Assembly: GCA_026391005.1 (NCBI GenBank)
Contig: JAPLEV010000037.1
Span: 1 to 64,000 of the forward strand
Source of the DNA: Flavobacteriia bacterium
Lineage (GTDB): Bacteria; Bacteroidota; Bacteroidia; Flavobacteriales_D; Crocinitomicaceae
Length of the DNA: 64,000 bases
Reading direction: 5' to 3'
The number at the start of each line of letters is the position of its first letter. Position 1 is the stretch's first letter. This document shows positions 43,726 to 52,128 of this stretch, in pieces. The translations under genes and the position numbers were made by a program. The notes below the pieces were generated by a model. It saw nothing but the letters and a program-made list of their open reading frames with translations, did not search any database and was not told where the DNA came from.

Positions 43726-43759
43726 TTTGTTTTTTGTTTAACTTAATATCTTACATTTG
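43726..43759 (+). promoter_or_regulatory. -33/-7 promoter pair upstream of the ECF sigma gene
   Basis: TTTG at 43726-43729 and TACATTTG at 43752-43759, 22 nt apart, fit the Bacteroidota housekeeping promoter (TTTG, then TAnnTTTG). Transcription would start near 43766, leaving a leader of about 65 nt before the TTG start at 43833. A TGTAACTTTT stretch at 43785-43794 lies in that leader and may be a second, alternative-sigma element. Confidence 0.45.
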
Positions 43760-43832
43760 TTTTGCTTGAAATAATTTGTCAAGCTGTAACTTTTCGTGAG
43801 AGAAGATTGTTTTAACTGTAATTGTCACCATT

Positions 43833-44321
43833 TTGAAAAGACAAGAATTCAATGATGTAGTGGAAATGCACAGCAAGAATCTATTCCGATTCGCTGTTAA
43901 TTTCTTGCGCTCATCGAATGATGCAGAGGATATTGTGCAGGATGTTTTTGAAAAATTGTGGATAAACAGAGAAAAAGTGGAATTGGAAAAGGCAAAAAGT
44001 TGGTTATTTACTTGCACGCACAACGCGATGTTGAACTTAATTAAAAAAAGTTCGCGTTTGGAGTACATGGAAACCAGCCTGATACCGGAAAACACTGCTA
44101 CGGCTACCTCAAGTTTCGAATCGAAACAAGTGGTTGATCGGATCGTTAGTATTTTACCTCCAATCCAAAAGAGCATTATCTTGATGCGGGACCTTGAAGG
44201 TTATTCGTATGATGAAATCGGCGACATGCTGGAATTATCCCCGTCTCAAGTAAAGGTCTATCTGTTTAGAGCAAGAATGAAAATTAAAAAGCAGTTAAAA
44301 GGATCTAATCAATTTGCGTGA
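43833..44321 (+). CDS. ECF-type RNA polymerase sigma factor
   Basis: The 162-residue protein is a group 4 (ECF) sigma factor. Region 2 has EMHSKNLFRFAVNFLRSSNDAEDIVQDVFEKLW (about 12-44) and region 4 has LRDLEGYSYDEIGDMLELSPSQVKVYLFRARMKIKKQL (about 118-155). No extra domain is present. The only reasonable start is TTG at 43833; the first ATG (43866) would cut into region 2. The next gene starts 4 nt inside its 3' end, so sigma and its presumed anti-sigma partner are translationally coupled. Target genes are unknown. Confidence 0.92.
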   Translation: MKRQEFNDVVEMHSKNLFRFAVNFLRSSNDAEDIVQDVFEKLWINREKVELEKAKSWLFTCTHNAMLNLIKKSSRLEYMETSLIPENTATATSSFESKQVVDRIVSILPPIQKSIILMRDLEGYSYDEIGDMLELSPSQVKVYLFRARMKIKKQLKGSNQFA

Positions 44322-45961
44322 ATATACCCAATAAAGAAAATATAGACCGTTGGTTGTTTGATTGGACAGAGGGTAACCTAAGTCCATCTCAGGAATTTCT
44401 GCTCCAAGAATTCTTATTGCTAAATCCAGACCTCGAATCAGATGCAGAAGCATGGGACGCTGCCTCAGTTTCTTCAATTCCCTTCACTTACAGTAATCAA
44501 GAATCTTTAAAAAGAAAGAAAAGAAGGATTCTTGGATATTGGCAGTTTTATGCTTCTGCTTGTTTTGTATTAACGATTGGAGCAAGCTTATTCTATGGTT
44601 TATCACAAAATAATGAGGTTAAGCCAACACAAAAAAATAAAACCCAGGTATCAAATAAGTCTAAAATAAGTTTAAAAAACAATATTAAAACTGGCTTAAA
44701 AGAAATAAATCCAACTCTTTTGGGTTTAAGCTCGTACAAGAAAGAATTGACAAATAAGCGTGTGATAGAAGATAAAGATTTTTTCATTTCAATGGCTAAC
44801 TATTCTTCCAGTTTGAAAGAACAAGAAAATTTTAATAACTACGATAATCTTTCCACAAAATCCTTAATCGATTATCAAATAGCGGATAACAGTTCATCCG
44901 ATGAAAATTCCGTAAATGATTTTATTAGTTACGACATGTCATCTACTGAAAATCTTACAGAAGAAAAAAACGACAAAGTAAAAAAATCGTTATCAATTTC
45001 ACTAAAACTTAATCCATCGTCATCCGTATCAAAATGGTTGAAGAAAGAAGTTACTAATACCAATCAAAAAGAGCGAATTTATTCACTTCCAGAAAAGTCG
45101 AATTTGGATATAAATAGTTCATTTGCTGGAAATACTTCACAATTCAAATTTCAATCGATGTCAACTGCTCGTTGGATGAATACTATTGATCAACAAAAAA
45201 TAGCGCAACAAATTTCAATGGATGGTTACCTTCGCAGTGCAAAATCAGGATTAGGAATGGTAGCTAATTACAGCACATTTGGAAATGGATTAATTCAAGA
45301 TTGGAATATTAATTTTATCTACGCACCAAAACTTGCTTTAAATCGTTACATCACCATCGAGCCTTCAATGAAATATACTTTTGGTAAAAAAGTTTTAGAC
45401 AATACAAAAATTGTTAATAATGCGAATGTAGAATTCGAAACAAACCATCTGGAAACATTTACAATTGATCCAAGTCAACCAATTGGTAAGAACTTATGGT
45501 ACCGTGATTTAGGCGCAGGACTTGTAATTAATGCTGGTCCGGTATATTTGGGTGGACAATTAACGAATATTTTAAAACACCAAGATAATCTCTATTCTAA
45601 TGATTACTCATCCGTTCGAAAGGCAAATCAAGAATTAACTTTAATAGGTGGTACTGATTTTGTCTCTAAAAATGGTTTTTATAATTTCTCACCCTATTTA
45701 TGTCATACTATTTCAGGGACAGTTAATACGACCTATTTAGGTGCTAGTGTTCAGATAAAATCGTTCCTTCTTGGCGGTTCCATTCAACCTAATGGGTCCA
45801 GTAGCGCAATGATTGGGGTTAACAGCAATCGTTTTGCATTATTTTGTCAATCCTCTTATGTTTCAAGCAGTTTTAGTCAACAAAAATCATTTATTCATCA
45901 ATTAACCTTTAGAATTAATTCTAATATTAGTAAAAAAGTCAGACGTTATTTATATTTGTAG
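44318..45961 (+). CDS. anti-sigma-like protein spanning both membranes, with PorP/SprF-like beta-barrel
   Basis: The 547-residue protein starts with GTG and overlaps the sigma gene by 4 nt. Residues 1-60 (ENIDRWLFDWTEGNLSPSQE ... NPDLESDAEAW) resemble the N-terminal sigma-binding region of Bacteroidota anti-sigma factors. A basic patch KRKKRR (65-70) and one transmembrane helix (about 73-94) follow. A Ser/Asn/Lys-rich, probably disordered linker spans about 95-275. The last 250 residues form beta-strands laid out like the adjacent PorP/SprF protein (LNRYITIEPSMKYTFGKK, DLGAGLVINAGPVYLGGQL). The order implies cytoplasmic head, inner-membrane helix, periplasmic tether and outer-membrane barrel, as in the dual-membrane-spanning anti-sigma (Dma) proteins reported in Bacteroides. 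That topology is inference. Confidence 0.75.
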   Translation: MNIPNKENIDRWLFDWTEGNLSPSQEFLLQEFLLLNPDLESDAEAWDAASVSSIPFTYSNQESLKRKKRRILGYWQFYASACFVLTIGASLFYGLSQNNEVKPTQKNKTQVSNKSKISLKNNIKTGLKEINPTLLGLSSYKKELTNKRVIEDKDFFISMANYSSSLKEQENFNNYDNLSTKSLIDYQIADNSSSDENSVNDFISYDMSSTENLTEEKNDKVKKSLSISLKLNPSSSVSKWLKKEVTNTNQKERIYSLPEKSNLDINSSFAGNTSQFKFQSMSTARWMNTIDQQKIAQQISMDGYLRSAKSGLGMVANYSTFGNGLIQDWNINFIYAPKLALNRYITIEPSMKYTFGKKVLDNTKIVNNANVEFETNHLETFTIDPSQPIGKNLWYRDLGAGLVINAGPVYLGGQLTNILKHQDNLYSNDYSSVRKANQELTLIGGTDFVSKNGFYNFSPYLCHTISGTVNTTYLGASVQIKSFLLGGSIQPNGSSSAMIGVNSNRFALFCQSSYVSSSFSQQKSFIHQLTFRINSNISKKVRRYLYL

Positions 45962-45963
45962 TT

Positions 45964-46929
45964 ATGAAAATTAAAAATGCAATCTTATCCTTGTGTATAT
46001 TAGTAGGTGCTAACGCAATGGCACAAGACCCAACTTTCACACAATTCTATTCTAACCCGACCTATTTGAACCCCGCATTAGCAGGTTCTTTGGGCTGTCC
46101 TCGGATCACAATGAATTATAGAAATGAATGGCCACAACTCACTGGTAATTACGTTACTTACAGTATGGCTTACGACACATACGTAAAGAGTATTTCTGGC
46201 GGTATTGGTATTATTGCTACCCATGACCAACAAGCTCGAGGAACCATTTCAACGACCATGTTGGGTGCCATTTACTCTTACAATTTAAGGGTAAATAGGA
46301 AATTTTCAATCATGTTTGGTGCAAGAGCTGCGTATTATCAAAAATTCTTGGATTGGAGTAAGTTGACATTCGGCGATCAAATTGACCCTAGAAGAGGATT
46401 CATCTACCAAACAGGAGATGTACCTCGCGGCAATGGAAAGCGCGGCTTTTTTGATGTTTCAGCAGGAATGGTTGGGTACACTCAAAATTTCTATGCAGGT
46501 TTAGCGATTCATCACCTAAACCGACCTGATGAGTCAATGATTTTAGGTCAATCTAAGCTGCCGATGCGCTTTACTGGACACGCCGGAGCAAATATTCGAA
46601 TTGGCAATAAAGGGAGATATTCAAACTCTACTGCTGTGATGCCAAACATTATATACCAATACCAAAATGGTTTTCAAGAATTAAGTATTGGTACTTATTT
46701 GAAATATGAAAACTTTACAGTTGGTGCATGGTATCGTAATAAAGATGCATTTATATTATGCTTCGGGATAAACACAGAGAGCTTTAAAGTTGGATATAGC
46801 TATGATGTGACTGTTTCAAAATTAGGAAACGGAATATCAGGTGGTTCACATGAAGTTTCTTTAGGACTAAATTTGAAGTGCAAGAAAAAACCTAAAAACT
46901 TCAGAAAACTAAATTGTCCTTCTTTCTAA
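45964..46929 (+). CDS. PorP/SprF family type IX secretion membrane protein
   Basis: The 321-residue protein has a signal peptide (1-20, cleaving before QDPTF) and the PorP/SprF outer-membrane barrel. The start DPTFTQFYSNPTYLNPALAGS is the family signature. Family members work with type IX secretion, often paired with large surface adhesins such as SprB. Here no adhesin follows; instead the gene starts 2 nt after the anti-sigma-like protein that carries a related barrel. The three genes (sigma, anti-sigma/barrel, PorP) look like one operon. A role as partner barrel or signal input is inferred. Confidence 0.88.
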   Translation: MKIKNAILSLCILVGANAMAQDPTFTQFYSNPTYLNPALAGSLGCPRITMNYRNEWPQLTGNYVTYSMAYDTYVKSISGGIGIIATHDQQARGTISTTMLGAIYSYNLRVNRKFSIMFGARAAYYQKFLDWSKLTFGDQIDPRRGFIYQTGDVPRGNGKRGFFDVSAGMVGYTQNFYAGLAIHHLNRPDESMILGQSKLPMRFTGHAGANIRIGNKGRYSNSTAVMPNIIYQYQNGFQELSIGTYLKYENFTVGAWYRNKDAFILCFGINTESFKVGYSYDVTVSKLGNGISGGSHEVSLGLNLKCKKKPKNFRKLNCPSF

Positions 46930-48589: not shown

Positions 48590-51355
48590 TTAAAAAGGAT
48601 ATCCGATGCCAAATTGCAAGGCAGGTGCAAAAGGTTTTGGTAATTTACTAAGTGCCCTATCGCGATTCATCTCCGGTGTAAAATTGGGAAGACTATAATA
48701 AGCTATTCCTTCTTGGTAATAAGGTTCTCGGCTTTGACTTATCCAACGAGATTTTGATGGAAGTGCAGGATTATATACAGGTACTCCAAAATCCAATCGA
48801 ATAATAAAAAAATCTAAATCTAACCTAAAACCAACACCAAGCGCCACGGCAAATTGTTCATACCAATTATTCGAAAACTTTGCACCAACTCTTGAATCAT
48901 CCTCTTTATAGGTCCAGATATTTCCAAAATCAGTAAAAAAAGCTCCTTTAAGAGAACTATTAATCGAATACCTATATTCTATAGTTCCTCCTAGTCTAAT
49001 GTCTCCAATTTGTGCAGTAGTAGCAGTTGAATCAAGATAATACTTGAAAGACCCCGGTCCCAAAGTTCGTGCTCGCCAACCTCTATTATCGTTTGCACCA
49101 CCACCAAAAAAACTATAATCATAGGGCATAGATAGTTTCGAATTACCAAAAGGAATCCCAAATCCCCCAAAGAATTTAAGATTCAAAGATGAGTTTTTAT
49201 TAAACTTTTTATTAAAAATATAAATATTATCATTTCGGACAAATTGAGCATAACCAATTCCATAGAAGGAAAACTGCCCATTTGAAAGCGTATCTTGGTA
49301 GCGATTAAACCAAGAAAGAAATGAGCCCGCTGACGAAAAACTGGACGTAAAATTTATTTGTGCATCTAAGAAGGCCTTTTTAAAAAGTTTATTTTTAGTA
49401 TTTAAAAATTGCTTTTTTGTATTATCATAAATAAAAGAGAGTTTAAAGTCCTCCCAAATAAACTGATTGCTGTATGAATTCTTTAAAAATAAATCATTTT
49501 GGGAATTTATTTGCGATTCGAATAATGGGCTTTTATTGATTGATACATATTTTATAACTGAAGCAAACGGGAGCCCAAATTCGAATATTTGCGTTTTATC
49601 AACAAGCATTTTAAAAGTATAATTTAATTGGAAAAGACTGCGTTCAAAAATATCCCTTTTCTCATAATTAAAGGCCATAGATATTACTGTTTTCGGTTTT
49701 TGCCTTTTAGACAACAGATTGACTTTAGTTGGAAATAAACCTGGAATTTCGAGCTTCAGACTAGGACCAAATTCAAAAGTATTAAATACTATACCTTTCC
49801 GAGAACCATCATCAAAGACGATAGGTTGAGATTCAAAACCGCCACCAAAAGAAAATGTCAGTTTTTGACCTCCGCCAAAAATGTTCCTATCCGAATAATT
49901 TATCGACGCATTTACCCCTAATAAACCAAACGATGATGTGAATTTAGGTTCAAAAGCAAAGACTTTTCTTTTCGCAGGAATTAAGAAATAATGCACATCC
50001 AGCTTGTTATTCGGCAGTTCTTTGATAATTGGTTTGATTATTGAAAAAAGACCAAGCTGATTTAATGATTGGTACGATCTTTCTAAATAAACTTCTTTGT
50101 AGACATTTTCCATTTCTAAATAATTCTGTAGCTCAAGTAAATTGACATTCACACACGGTTTTTCTCCGTTGTAATGAACATAAATCATCCGATTTGGATT
50201 TAAAGCATCTTTATTCGTTATTTTAAGTTCTTTTCTTTTCTTCTTAGTATAAAATTCTTTTGCATAAAAGAACTCGTTTTTCGTTGCTAAAAAATTATTG
50301 TCAAGGGAATCTAAAATAGATCGTTTAAATTCCTTATCTAAATAGGACGCAAACCTTACATTCAACATAGAAGTATCTGACAAATGAAAATGAACCTTAT
50401 TTATAAATGTTTTAACGTAATTCTTTTGTATTAAGCTGTCCTTGTTATTTGGGTCTGCAACTAATCTCTTTTGAAATTCAATACCTAAAATCACCTTCAT
50501 CGAAGATTTACTTGTATCTGCGGTAAAGATTATACTTGAAGCAGAAAAACCATAAAAAGTTTGATTTCGCATATAAACAGCTATGACCTCTCTATAATCT
50601 TCCAGATAATCAATATCAAATGGTTTATTTAGCAGTGGTTCAATTCCATTATTTTTGCTCAAATATTCAATTAAAAAATACTTTTTATAAATATTCAAAA
50701 TCGATGATTCTACCCCCGGATAATAAACAGAGTCGATTGTATAGAGTGGACCAGTATTAATAGAATAGTCAACGGAGACTTTTTTATTCTTTATGCTGCT
50801 CGAATTAGCTGTTAGACTCGAGTAATAATATCCCTTTCGCTTTAGATAAAATCCAATTTGATTAATCGATTTCTTCATTAAAACACTATCAAAAATTACT
50901 GGTTTCTCAGCTATTTTATATTTAAGCCATTCACGAAAAAACAATCTAGAGTTCTCAATATCAATAGGTATAATTACTTTTTGGGTATAGAGTTTTTTGC
51001 CATTTTCTCTAGCTTTCTCAATTCTTTTAGCATTAATTAGGCTAACTTTTAGGCTATCTTTTTTATTTTTTTCAGTAATCTTTAAATTTATTTTATTTCT
51101 TTTATTTGCTATTTTGAGTGAATCTAGACTATTAAATAGGATTAGCTTGAAAGGAATTCCTAACAATCTACTATTTGCTTGTTGTCGGACCAGCTCATTA
51201 ATTTCAGTGGTGTTAACAGTAGTGTTACTACTTTTTATTTCTATTTTGTTTTTCTTTAGCAATAAACTTCCGTTCGGAATATTTTTTGAAACATTACAAG
51301 ACCCTAAAAATAATAGCAGAAATGGAATAAATATGGTGTAAATTTGAATTCTCAT
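48590..51355 (-). CDS. BamA/TamA-family outer-membrane protein, lipoprotein type
   Basis: The 921-residue protein starts MRIQIYTIFIPFLLLFLGSC, a lipoprotein signal with lipobox LGSC (Cys20). A lysine-rich POTRA-like periplasmic region covers about 30-480, and the C-terminal half is a 16-strand Omp85-type barrel. Its final strands contain PYDYSFFGGGANDNRGWRARTLGPGS (the family's RGW..R motif), RLGGTIEYRYS and the end LQFGIGYPF. Such TamA/BamA paralogues assemble outer-membrane proteins or export lipids. The start at 51353-51355 replaces a longer frame to 51403 that lacks a signal peptide. A TATTTTTG promoter box precedes it. Confidence 0.9.
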   Translation of the reverse strand: MRIQIYTIFIPFLLLFLGSCNVSKNIPNGSLLLKKNKIEIKSSNTTVNTTEINELVRQQANSRLLGIPFKLILFNSLDSLKIANKRNKINLKITEKNKKDSLKVSLINAKRIEKARENGKKLYTQKVIIPIDIENSRLFFREWLKYKIAEKPVIFDSVLMKKSINQIGFYLKRKGYYYSSLTANSSSIKNKKVSVDYSINTGPLYTIDSVYYPGVESSILNIYKKYFLIEYLSKNNGIEPLLNKPFDIDYLEDYREVIAVYMRNQTFYGFSASSIIFTADTSKSSMKVILGIEFQKRLVADPNNKDSLIQKNYVKTFINKVHFHLSDTSMLNVRFASYLDKEFKRSILDSLDNNFLATKNEFFYAKEFYTKKKRKELKITNKDALNPNRMIYVHYNGEKPCVNVNLLELQNYLEMENVYKEVYLERSYQSLNQLGLFSIIKPIIKELPNNKLDVHYFLIPAKRKVFAFEPKFTSSFGLLGVNASINYSDRNIFGGGQKLTFSFGGGFESQPIVFDDGSRKGIVFNTFEFGPSLKLEIPGLFPTKVNLLSKRQKPKTVISMAFNYEKRDIFERSLFQLNYTFKMLVDKTQIFEFGLPFASVIKYVSINKSPLFESQINSQNDLFLKNSYSNQFIWEDFKLSFIYDNTKKQFLNTKNKLFKKAFLDAQINFTSSFSSAGSFLSWFNRYQDTLSNGQFSFYGIGYAQFVRNDNIYIFNKKFNKNSSLNLKFFGGFGIPFGNSKLSMPYDYSFFGGGANDNRGWRARTLGPGSFKYYLDSTATTAQIGDIRLGGTIEYRYSINSSLKGAFFTDFGNIWTYKEDDSRVGAKFSNNWYEQFAVALGVGFRLDLDFFIIRLDFGVPVYNPALPSKSRWISQSREPYYQEGIAYYSLPNFTPEMNRDRALSKLPKPFAPALQFGIGYPF

Positions 51356-51365
51356 AATTGTCTTA

Positions 51366-51373
51366 CAAAAATA
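51366..51373 (-). promoter_or_regulatory. -7 promoter element TATTTTTG of the BamA/TamA-like gene
   Basis: On the minus strand, TATTTTTG fits TAnnTTTG and ends 10 nt before the ATG at 51355. The box overlaps the 5' end of the divergent longer reading of the TrmH-type gene, one reason to move that gene's start downstream to 51388. Confidence 0.5.
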
Positions 51374-51387
51374 GCAATATTGTACAA

Positions 51388-52128
51388 GTGGAAAAACTTT
51401 CAATTAATAAGTTAAAATGGATCCGAAACCTACATTCCAAAAAGTTCAGAGATAGTGAAGGGTTTTACATCGCTGAAGGAGAAAAAATACTTCGTGAAAT
51501 CGTTGCTGTTGATCCATCCTCAATAAATTTCATCGTTTGCACAAAAACCACGCTAGAAATCCTTGAAAACTATTCCGAGTTTGATCTTTTTATCGCCAGC
51601 CCAAATGAATTTGAACGAATTTCTTTACTGAAGGCTCCACAAGGGATTTTACTTGTTTTAAAAAGTAAAATTTCAGCTGTTAGCAGCTTAAATCTCACGG
51701 AAAATATCCTAGTATTAGATAACATCCAAGATCCTGGAAATTTGGGCACTATTTTACGAACAGCAGATTGGTTTGGTATTAAGCAAGTTTATTGTAGTAA
51801 GAATACTGTTGAATGCTATAATCCTCGTGTGGTTCAAGCGTCAATGGGCAGCTTGTTTAGGACGAACATTATTTACGGAGATTTACCCGAGTTCCTATCA
51901 CAACAAAAGCTTCCAATATATGGTGCGATGCTGAATGGCCAATCCTGCTACAGTCAAAAAATAGCTAAAAATGCTATTTTAATTATTGGGAATGAAGGCA
52001 ATGGAATTTCAAAAGAAATTATTGATCTTATCCAACATCCTATTACAATACCTGGAGACGGAAATGGAGAGTCGTTAAATGTCGCTGTGGCTTGCGGAAT
52101 ATTATTATCGCATTGGGTAAAAAGTTAA
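51388..52128 (+). CDS. TrmH/SpoU-family RNA methyltransferase
   Basis: The protein is a SPOUT 2'-O-ribose methyltransferase acting on rRNA or tRNA. The N-terminal substrate-binding part has LKWIRNLHSKKFRDSEGFYIAEGEKILREI. The trefoil-knot SAM motifs are LDNIQDPGNLGTILRTADWFG, IIGNEGNGISKEI and IPGDGNGESLNVAVACGILL. I use GTG at 51388 (247 residues); a TTG at 51358 adds ten residues but overlaps the opposite promoter box. The exact position methylated cannot be predicted. Confidence 0.88.
   Translation: MEKLSINKLKWIRNLHSKKFRDSEGFYIAEGEKILREIVAVDPSSINFIVCTKTTLEILENYSEFDLFIASPNEFERISLLKAPQGILLVLKSKISAVSSLNLTENILVLDNIQDPGNLGTILRTADWFGIKQVYCSKNTVECYNPRVVQASMGSLFRTNIIYGDLPEFLSQQKLPIYGAMLNGQSCYSQKIAKNAILIIGNEGNGISKEIIDLIQHPITIPGDGNGESLNVAVACGILLSHWVKS

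Follow-up and report, generated by a model that had tools for sequence, protein, structure and literature searches.

A putative anti-sigma factor with a PorP-derived barrel in a conserved gene unit with an extracytoplasmic function sigma factor and PorP

Introduction

Contig JAPLEV010000037.1 (GenBank assembly GCA_026391005.1), from a Flavobacteriia bacterium of the family Crocinitomicaceae, carries a three-gene unit in which a gene for an extracytoplasmic function (ECF) sigma factor is followed by a gene for an anti-sigma-type protein and by a gene for a PorP/SprF protein of the type IX secretion system (T9SS). The window, meaning the whole 64-kb stretch of DNA that was analysed, belongs to a 2.64-Mb genome in 56 contigs. 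The observation is real: the middle protein of the triad is a conserved variant of the dual-membrane-spanning anti-sigma (Dma) factors, which were described only recently, and the barrel at its end derives from PorP. Judged from sequence, its parts (an anti-sigma-type chain, a PorP-derived barrel, a sigma factor and a core-type PorP) are very probably identified correctly, and the comparative pattern points to self-monitoring of the T9SS. For the whole mechanism proposed here, in which a PorP-derived decoy on the anti-sigma would sense PorP or T9SS status, a probability of about 0.45 is given. A single polypeptide that seems to connect a barrel of the secretion machine with a sigma factor offers a testable link, through deletions and a promoter reporter, for the way in which Bacteroidota read the state of their outer membrane and their type IX machine.

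The genes of the triad are as follows.

43833..44321, plus strand: ECF sigma factor, 162 aa, TTG start; NF058625 above its cut-off, Pfam regions 2 and 4
44318..45961, plus strand: Dma-like anti-sigma factor with PorP-type barrel, 547 aa, GTG start, 4-nt overlap with the sigma gene
45964..46929, plus strand: PorP/SprF protein, 321 aa; PF11751 and TIGR03519; close to the core T9SS PorP

They form a single gene unit, and the gene downstream lies on the opposite strand. An earlier note on this DNA had described the 4-nt overlap and the start of porP 2 nt past the anti-sigma stop codon, both of which agree with the gene coordinates; its starting position, 43726, falls in the intergenic promoter region, outside the sigma gene. 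Its assignment of the first gene to the ECF sigma factors stands as well, as the product scores 139.6 bits against a cut-off of 130 with NF058625 (ECF sigma, GFO_1088/PG0214 family) and exceeds the Pfam cut-offs for Sigma70_r2 and Sigma70_r4_2. The same genome holds a further pair of ECF sigma and anti-sigma-like genes (L228, G000:C5:78793-79257; 418-aa frame).

Architecture of the anti-sigma-type protein

Searched on its own, the 547-aa protein gave no match in Pfam or NCBIfam at E<=1. An AlphaFold2 model built on 57 aligned members divides it into four parts.

44318..44482, plus strand: head, residues 1-55, the presumed cytoplasmic sigma-binding part (AlphaFold2 helices; the same head behind other sigma genes)
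44546..44602, plus strand: membrane helix, residues 77-95 (top hydropathy window, preceded by basic residues, inside model helix 61-93)
44603..45064, plus strand: tether, residues 96-249, mostly disordered (predicted local distance difference test score, pLDDT, below 50 over 96-229)
45065..45958, plus strand: PorP-type barrel, residues 250-547, with strands at 277-534 (hhalign to PorP; AlphaFold2; Z 22.7 to 8gl6_F)

The head is modelled as helices 9-18, 23-35 and 37-49, followed by the long helix 61-93. There is a single transmembrane helix, with a median hydropathy of 1.85 in the 57 members against 0.98 elsewhere, and the tether is long and disordered, spanning 146-240 residues among these members. 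Model and hydropathy thus agree with the short head, basic patch, one transmembrane helix and disordered linker that had been read from the sequence. The architecture recurs in 56 relatives with identities to the window protein down to 19%; median identity is 56% in the head, drops to 39% in the barrel and is only 10% in the tether (96-240).

The head has no Pfam match and no credible PDB relative by sequence, and an anti-sigma NCBIfam model matches one of the 57 members (E 0.0028). Sequence searches likewise gave no credible solved relative for PorP or the anti-sigma, and the fold-match lists were filled by barrels. Heads of the same type follow sigma genes in proteins with other C-terminal parts: two head-only relatives that were scanned carry OMP_b-brl_2 barrels, and four proteins encoded behind ECF sigma genes (L127:1288-2361, L129:1276-2337, L130:1288-2388 and L131:1324-2352) carry the head twice in tandem and do not match the profile of the PorP-type barrel. 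The middle protein of the triad is read as an anti-sigma-type chain behind an ECF sigma factor, which its head would bind.

PorP ancestry of the barrel

The model shows a barrel of 14 main strands between residues 277 and 534, with block mean pLDDT mostly 87-97, so that the barrel previously placed in residues 290-547 is indeed predicted. In hhalign, residues 250-544 align with PorP residues 20-313 at E = 1.4e-20 over 288 columns, pairing DLGAGLVINAGPVYLGGQL with the neighbour's DVSAGMVGYTQNFYAGLAI; the likeness to the neighbouring PorP first noticed by eye is correctly aligned and, given this E value and an architecture kept in the 56 relatives, goes beyond chance. PF11751 (PorP_SprF) matches 25 of the 57 members and TIGR03519 20 of them at E<=0.1, the window member matching neither. 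Among the Pfam matches of the 57 members there is no further outer-membrane barrel family, and a single member matches an autotransporter adhesin model in NCBIfam (E 0.0077). When the protein's own genome was searched, the sole other matches at E<=10 were two PorP barrels with 19-20% identity (E 6-8e-4), namely the neighbour's and one encoded beside PorU- and PorK-like genes (named from sequence).

Structural comparison agrees with this ancestry. The barrel has the 14 strands of a FadL-type barrel and its model superimposes on chain F of the T9SS translocon structures 8gl6 and 6h3i, which we take to be PorV, with Z scores of 22.7 and 22.4 and root-mean-square deviations of 3.2 and 3.0 over 255 and 251 residues, respectively. 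The neighbouring PorP is also modelled with 14 strands, at lower confidence (mean pLDDT 73), and matches FadL-type and translocon chain F barrels with Z 21.6; matches to FadL and 8gl6_F begin at residue 254 of the Dma protein and at residues 14-21 of PorP. The barrel would sit in the outer membrane.

One hallmark of core-type PorPs separates the two barrels.

46351..46437, plus strand: long conserved PorP loop FGDQIDPRRGFIY, residues 130-158 of PorP; missing from the anti-sigma of the triad but mimicked in anti-sigmas from two other families

The FGDxID loop was detected in none of 64 Dma proteins by a loop profile at E<=10, and the barrel is therefore called PorP-derived and is not classed as a PorP. 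In a tree of 76 barrels, from which the L100 barrel was left out, the 15 Dma barrels, which come from the source genome's own family (f1) and from f13, cluster together with support 100/99, as a single fusion or barrel swap would predict; f13, f21, f38 and f48 are anonymous labels for other families.

Conservation of the gene unit

A survey for such triads, which the earlier note had proposed, found all three genes in 46 of 61 named loci. In six of the others a contig edge interrupts the unit, and nine end no more than 169 nt from, or inside, the anti-sigma gene. No locus (0/61) runs on past the anti-sigma gene without a PorP gene, and PorP, suggested before as a possible partner, is a constant genetic partner of the anti-sigma. 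At the junction of sigma and anti-sigma genes, 46 of 60 loci have the 4-nt overlap, 13 an overlap of 1 nt and one a gap of 33 nt. Five of the 61 loci (L091, L103, L104, L105, L108), in which the anti-sigma gene is cut, were left out of A2; in three of the 46 complete loci (L054, L068, L073) the sigma frame runs off the contig start; and L013-L042, which in part share contigs with L048-L108, were excluded from the counts. Most of the named relatives are metagenome-assembled genomes that bear the name Flavobacteriales or Crocinitomicaceae; a cultured species, Lishizhenia tianjinensis, also carries the unit (L096).

Matches were found in 172 of 200 family genomes, many of them as weak as PorPs themselves would give. 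A class-level profile search matched 139 of 295 genomes; among the matches listed, full-length proteins occurred only in f1 and f13, the remainder being head only or barrel only. In f13, sigma and anti-sigma genes were present in 7/7 loci examined and porP was whole in five. In the other two (L114:966-1256 and L117:468-1432) the porP frame is fragmentary or split over two frames, through assembly error or decay. A phylum search with the A5 profile gave matches in 21 of 395 genomes, most of the aligned length falling in its first 150 positions, and no PorP match lay within the stretches fetched for its 22 loci.

Promoters and PorP copies

A conserved sequence upstream of the sigma gene is the candidate promoter of the unit.

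43785..43816, plus strand: conserved, putative ECF-type promoter, TGTAACTTTT, spacer, TTGTTTTAAC

The pattern TGTAACT-N13-16-TTGT precedes the sigma gene in 55 of 56 distinct upstream regions, being missing in L107, and was found in 9 of 11600 mononucleotide shuffles. The f13 sigma genes are likewise preceded by a site that resembles it. Among 47 genomes of the genus, 31 have the long pattern at up to one mismatch, with a few extra one-mismatch sites. Scans for sigma-70 promoters and terminators gave nothing above shuffles. The conserved site would be an autoregulated ECF promoter driving the whole unit, porP included. One of the extra one-mismatch sites, around positions 1500-1530 of L165 (genome G022), resembles the triad promoter and separates an ECF sigma gene from a divergently transcribed gene whose product is probably exported.

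The neighbouring PorP scores 207.1 bits with PF11751 (cut-off 22.3) and 242.3 bits with TIGR03519 (cut-off 90.55). A second PorP gene lies upstream of a PorK-like gene in 20/20 genomes tested, and within seven family genomes the triad and core copies are 70, 70, 71, 71, 81, 91 and 95% identical, the value for the source genome being 71%. In four of these seven, the tree places both copies in one group (L255/L040 in G127, L257/L112 in G011, L254/L109 in G040 and L256/L096 in Lishizhenia, G005). Codon identity at shared residues reaches 71% in G127, compared with 40-48% between G127 core genes and others, which indicates recent gene conversion there; at 45-50%, the other six genomes are not above background. 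For G011, G040 and G005, the tree suggests older conversion or re-duplication. The source genome has 12 PorP/SprF matches, of which L046:4792-6159 (455 aa) and L047:2870-4561 (563 aa) are longer frames with a C-terminal part that looks OmpA-type by eye. Two genes downstream of the triad, at 48590-51403 on the minus strand of the window, lies a gene for a large barrel-type protein that by eye resembles a TamL/BamA relative.

PorP-loop mimics in other families

The class search also revealed PorPs encoded behind an ECF sigma gene and a gene for a short anti-sigma, and some of these anti-sigmas carry a piece of PorP other than its barrel.

L281-L304 and L320-L322 (e.g. L320:5505-6251, minus strand in L320): mimic loci, found by loop profile, with FGDxIDxxxGF in the anti-sigma and a PorP gene alongside

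The f21 sample was a single genus, in which 34 of 36 genomes gave a match and 30 loci were examined. There, 24 of 30 anti-sigmas hold a segment such as FGDMLDSSKGIIGETKEK; it corresponds to the PorP loop that is conserved best, LTFGDMIDPRRGFIYQT, and the loop profile scores it at E values from 3.7e-8 to 1.7e-3; no other non-PorP open reading frame in these loci reached E 0.1. PorP is encoded next door to 21 of the 24 mimic anti-sigmas, and the six anti-sigmas that lack the segment have no PorP nearby. In f38, the mimic occurs in three loci, altered in one (FPDQIDRRFG) and at E 1.1e-11 and 1.8e-8 in two. The f21 and f38 loci are related and are not independent counts. A locus in f48 (L120) encodes sigma, anti-sigma and PorP, with no mimic seen in the anti-sigma by eye.

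Promoter patterns also connect these sigma factors to PorP. In f21, GGCAAC-N13-18-CGTC precedes the sigma gene in 23 of 24 loci and the adjacent porP in 19 of 20, with 43 sites in 88 kb against 0.15 expected from mononucleotide shuffles, and a slightly looser motif lies near both genes in 3/3 f38 loci. The motif is absent from the core porP genes of eight such genomes, and extra GGCAACC-N-CGTCTT sites in f21 genomes precede varied genes. Because the motif stands before both genes, the extra PorP looks like a direct sigma target in f21 and f38. With porP inside the operon in the triad and directly behind such a promoter in two other families, the promoter evidence argues that PorP is quite probably an output of the sigma switch, beyond any part as partner in sensing. 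The loop mimic also offers a second, simpler handle on the decoy idea.

Proposed mechanism and alternative explanations

In the resting state of the proposed mechanism, the cytoplasmic head would keep the ECF sigma factor bound, and the barrel, joined to it by the tether, would sit in the outer membrane. There the barrel would act as a PorP decoy, sampling the partner or site that PorP usually occupies, for example the PorE/PorK-N ring or the SprA translocon; PorP contacts PorE and PorK, according to passages of one report (PMC9143113). Were that site vacant or altered, the change would reach the head and release sigma, which would transcribe its own operon from the conserved promoter and so supply sigma, anti-sigma and a further core-type PorP, and these products would restore the resting state. 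The earlier note's reading, an outer-membrane event relayed along one polypeptide to sigma, is thus supported in part. The decoy is favoured because in two different architectures an anti-sigma bears an element taken from PorP and its sigma factor seems to drive PorP production. That the signal itself is competition with PorP for a common partner can be put forward only tentatively. The broader proposal, that in several Bacteroidota lineages an anti-sigma with a PorP piece restrains a sigma factor whose products include extra PorP, the cell thereby metering its own T9SS by means of a duplicate of one component, is possible on this comparative evidence but falls somewhat short of an even chance.

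Several observations weigh against this mechanism. The Dma barrel lacks the very loop that the f21 and f38 anti-sigmas imitate (0/64), so that barrel and loop mimics need not sense the same contact; and if the N-terminus of the barrel is periplasmic, the loop would point outwards or into the lumen, possibly out of reach for a tail in the periplasm. Three of the 24 f21 mimic anti-sigmas have no PorP within the 6.5-7.5 kb fetched. Triad and core PorPs form separate neighbouring groups in the source genome, G108 and G100, and f13 triad PorPs stand apart from f13 core PorPs, so that full interchangeability of the copies is not general. The protein is not universal either, at least three same-genus genomes having no match among the family genomes searched. 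By eye, the core porP region of the source genome has no triad-type promoter. A search for a wider T9SS regulon in that genome yielded none: TGTAACTT-N13-16-TTGT gave 5 sites against 7 for the reversed control, the longer pattern at up to three mismatches gave 67 against 116, and the latter is exact only at the triad, the next best site having two mismatches.

Among the alternatives, the barrel could report its own assembly. As a PorP-type client of the beta-barrel assembly machinery (BAM), it would fail to insert under stress on that machinery, upon which the anti-sigma would be cut, sigma freed and the three proteins replaced, so that barrel assembly and not T9SS occupancy would be read. Such a sensor needs only parts that are shown to be present, a barrel on the anti-sigma and a PorP in the same unit, yet it leaves unexplained why a PorP-type barrel was chosen and why anti-sigmas bearing only the loop mimic, which need no BAM, lie beside PorP; this explanation is rather unlikely. 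Sensing of a ligand or substrate is unlikely as well and ranks below it: a FadL-type lumen or T9SS substrate face would bind a hydrophobic ligand or a type B C-terminal domain (CTD) protein, with the tether entering the N-terminal plug region. In its favour are the resemblance of both Dma and PorP barrels to FadL and translocon chain 8gl6_F and the binding of type B CTD proteins by PorP-like proteins that is stated in passages of the same report (PMC9143113). Against it, the triad contains no gene for a CTD protein or a ligand, the next gene being on the other strand, and the Dma barrel has lost the conserved PorP loop. Finally, a tethered PorP-like barrel that bridges the membranes without any regulatory role, beside an unrelated sigma gene, is highly improbable, since sigma and head lie side by side in 60/60 named loci in which both are present, and heads of this kind are also found behind sigma genes in proteins that lack a PorP-type barrel.

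Relation to known systems

In the titles, opening parts of abstracts and cited passages covered, no fusion of an anti-sigma with PorP was found, although work on Dma1 may discuss such proteins. The closest known system is Dma2, which according to the cited passages is encoded beside an ECF21 sigma gene and combines an anti-sigma region and a helix with a disordered tether that leads to a barrel (PMC13088901). The resemblance to Dma factors claimed in the earlier note holds: the gene overlaps that of an ECF sigma factor, and its product has a putative N-terminal anti-sigma part, one helix, a long disordered tether and a C-terminal beta-barrel. The barrel is of the 14-strand PorP/SprF type, unlike those of the two Dma-like relatives scanned, which are OMP_b-brl_2 barrels. 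The core-type PorP gene that follows the anti-sigma gene is a further difference from the Dma systems, and the term "PorP" is absent from the main text of the Dma2 paper (PMC13088901).

With PorP/SprF proteins, the Dma protein shares homology across the whole barrel and 14 strands in both models. It differs from them in having no signal peptide, in carrying a head, helix and tether, in missing the FGDxID loop and, for the window member, in giving no PF11751 match. In cell-surface signalling, an outer-membrane receptor communicates with a FecR-type anti-sigma and, through it, with an ECF sigma factor. The likeness lies in an outer-membrane barrel that speaks to an anti-sigma and an ECF sigma; in FecR-type signalling, however, receptor and anti-sigma are separate proteins, whereas here the barrel is part of the anti-sigma chain.

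An ECF sigma factor is also linked to T9SS genes in Porphyromonas gingivalis, where SigP acts with PorX/PorY in T9SS regulation and where, according to the passages cited, the connection from PorA at the surface to PorY in the inner membrane is missing (PMC7712824). Control there is by a two-component system, and those passages describe no barrel-bearing anti-sigma (PMC7712824), whereas in the present triad the barrel is carried by the anti-sigma itself.

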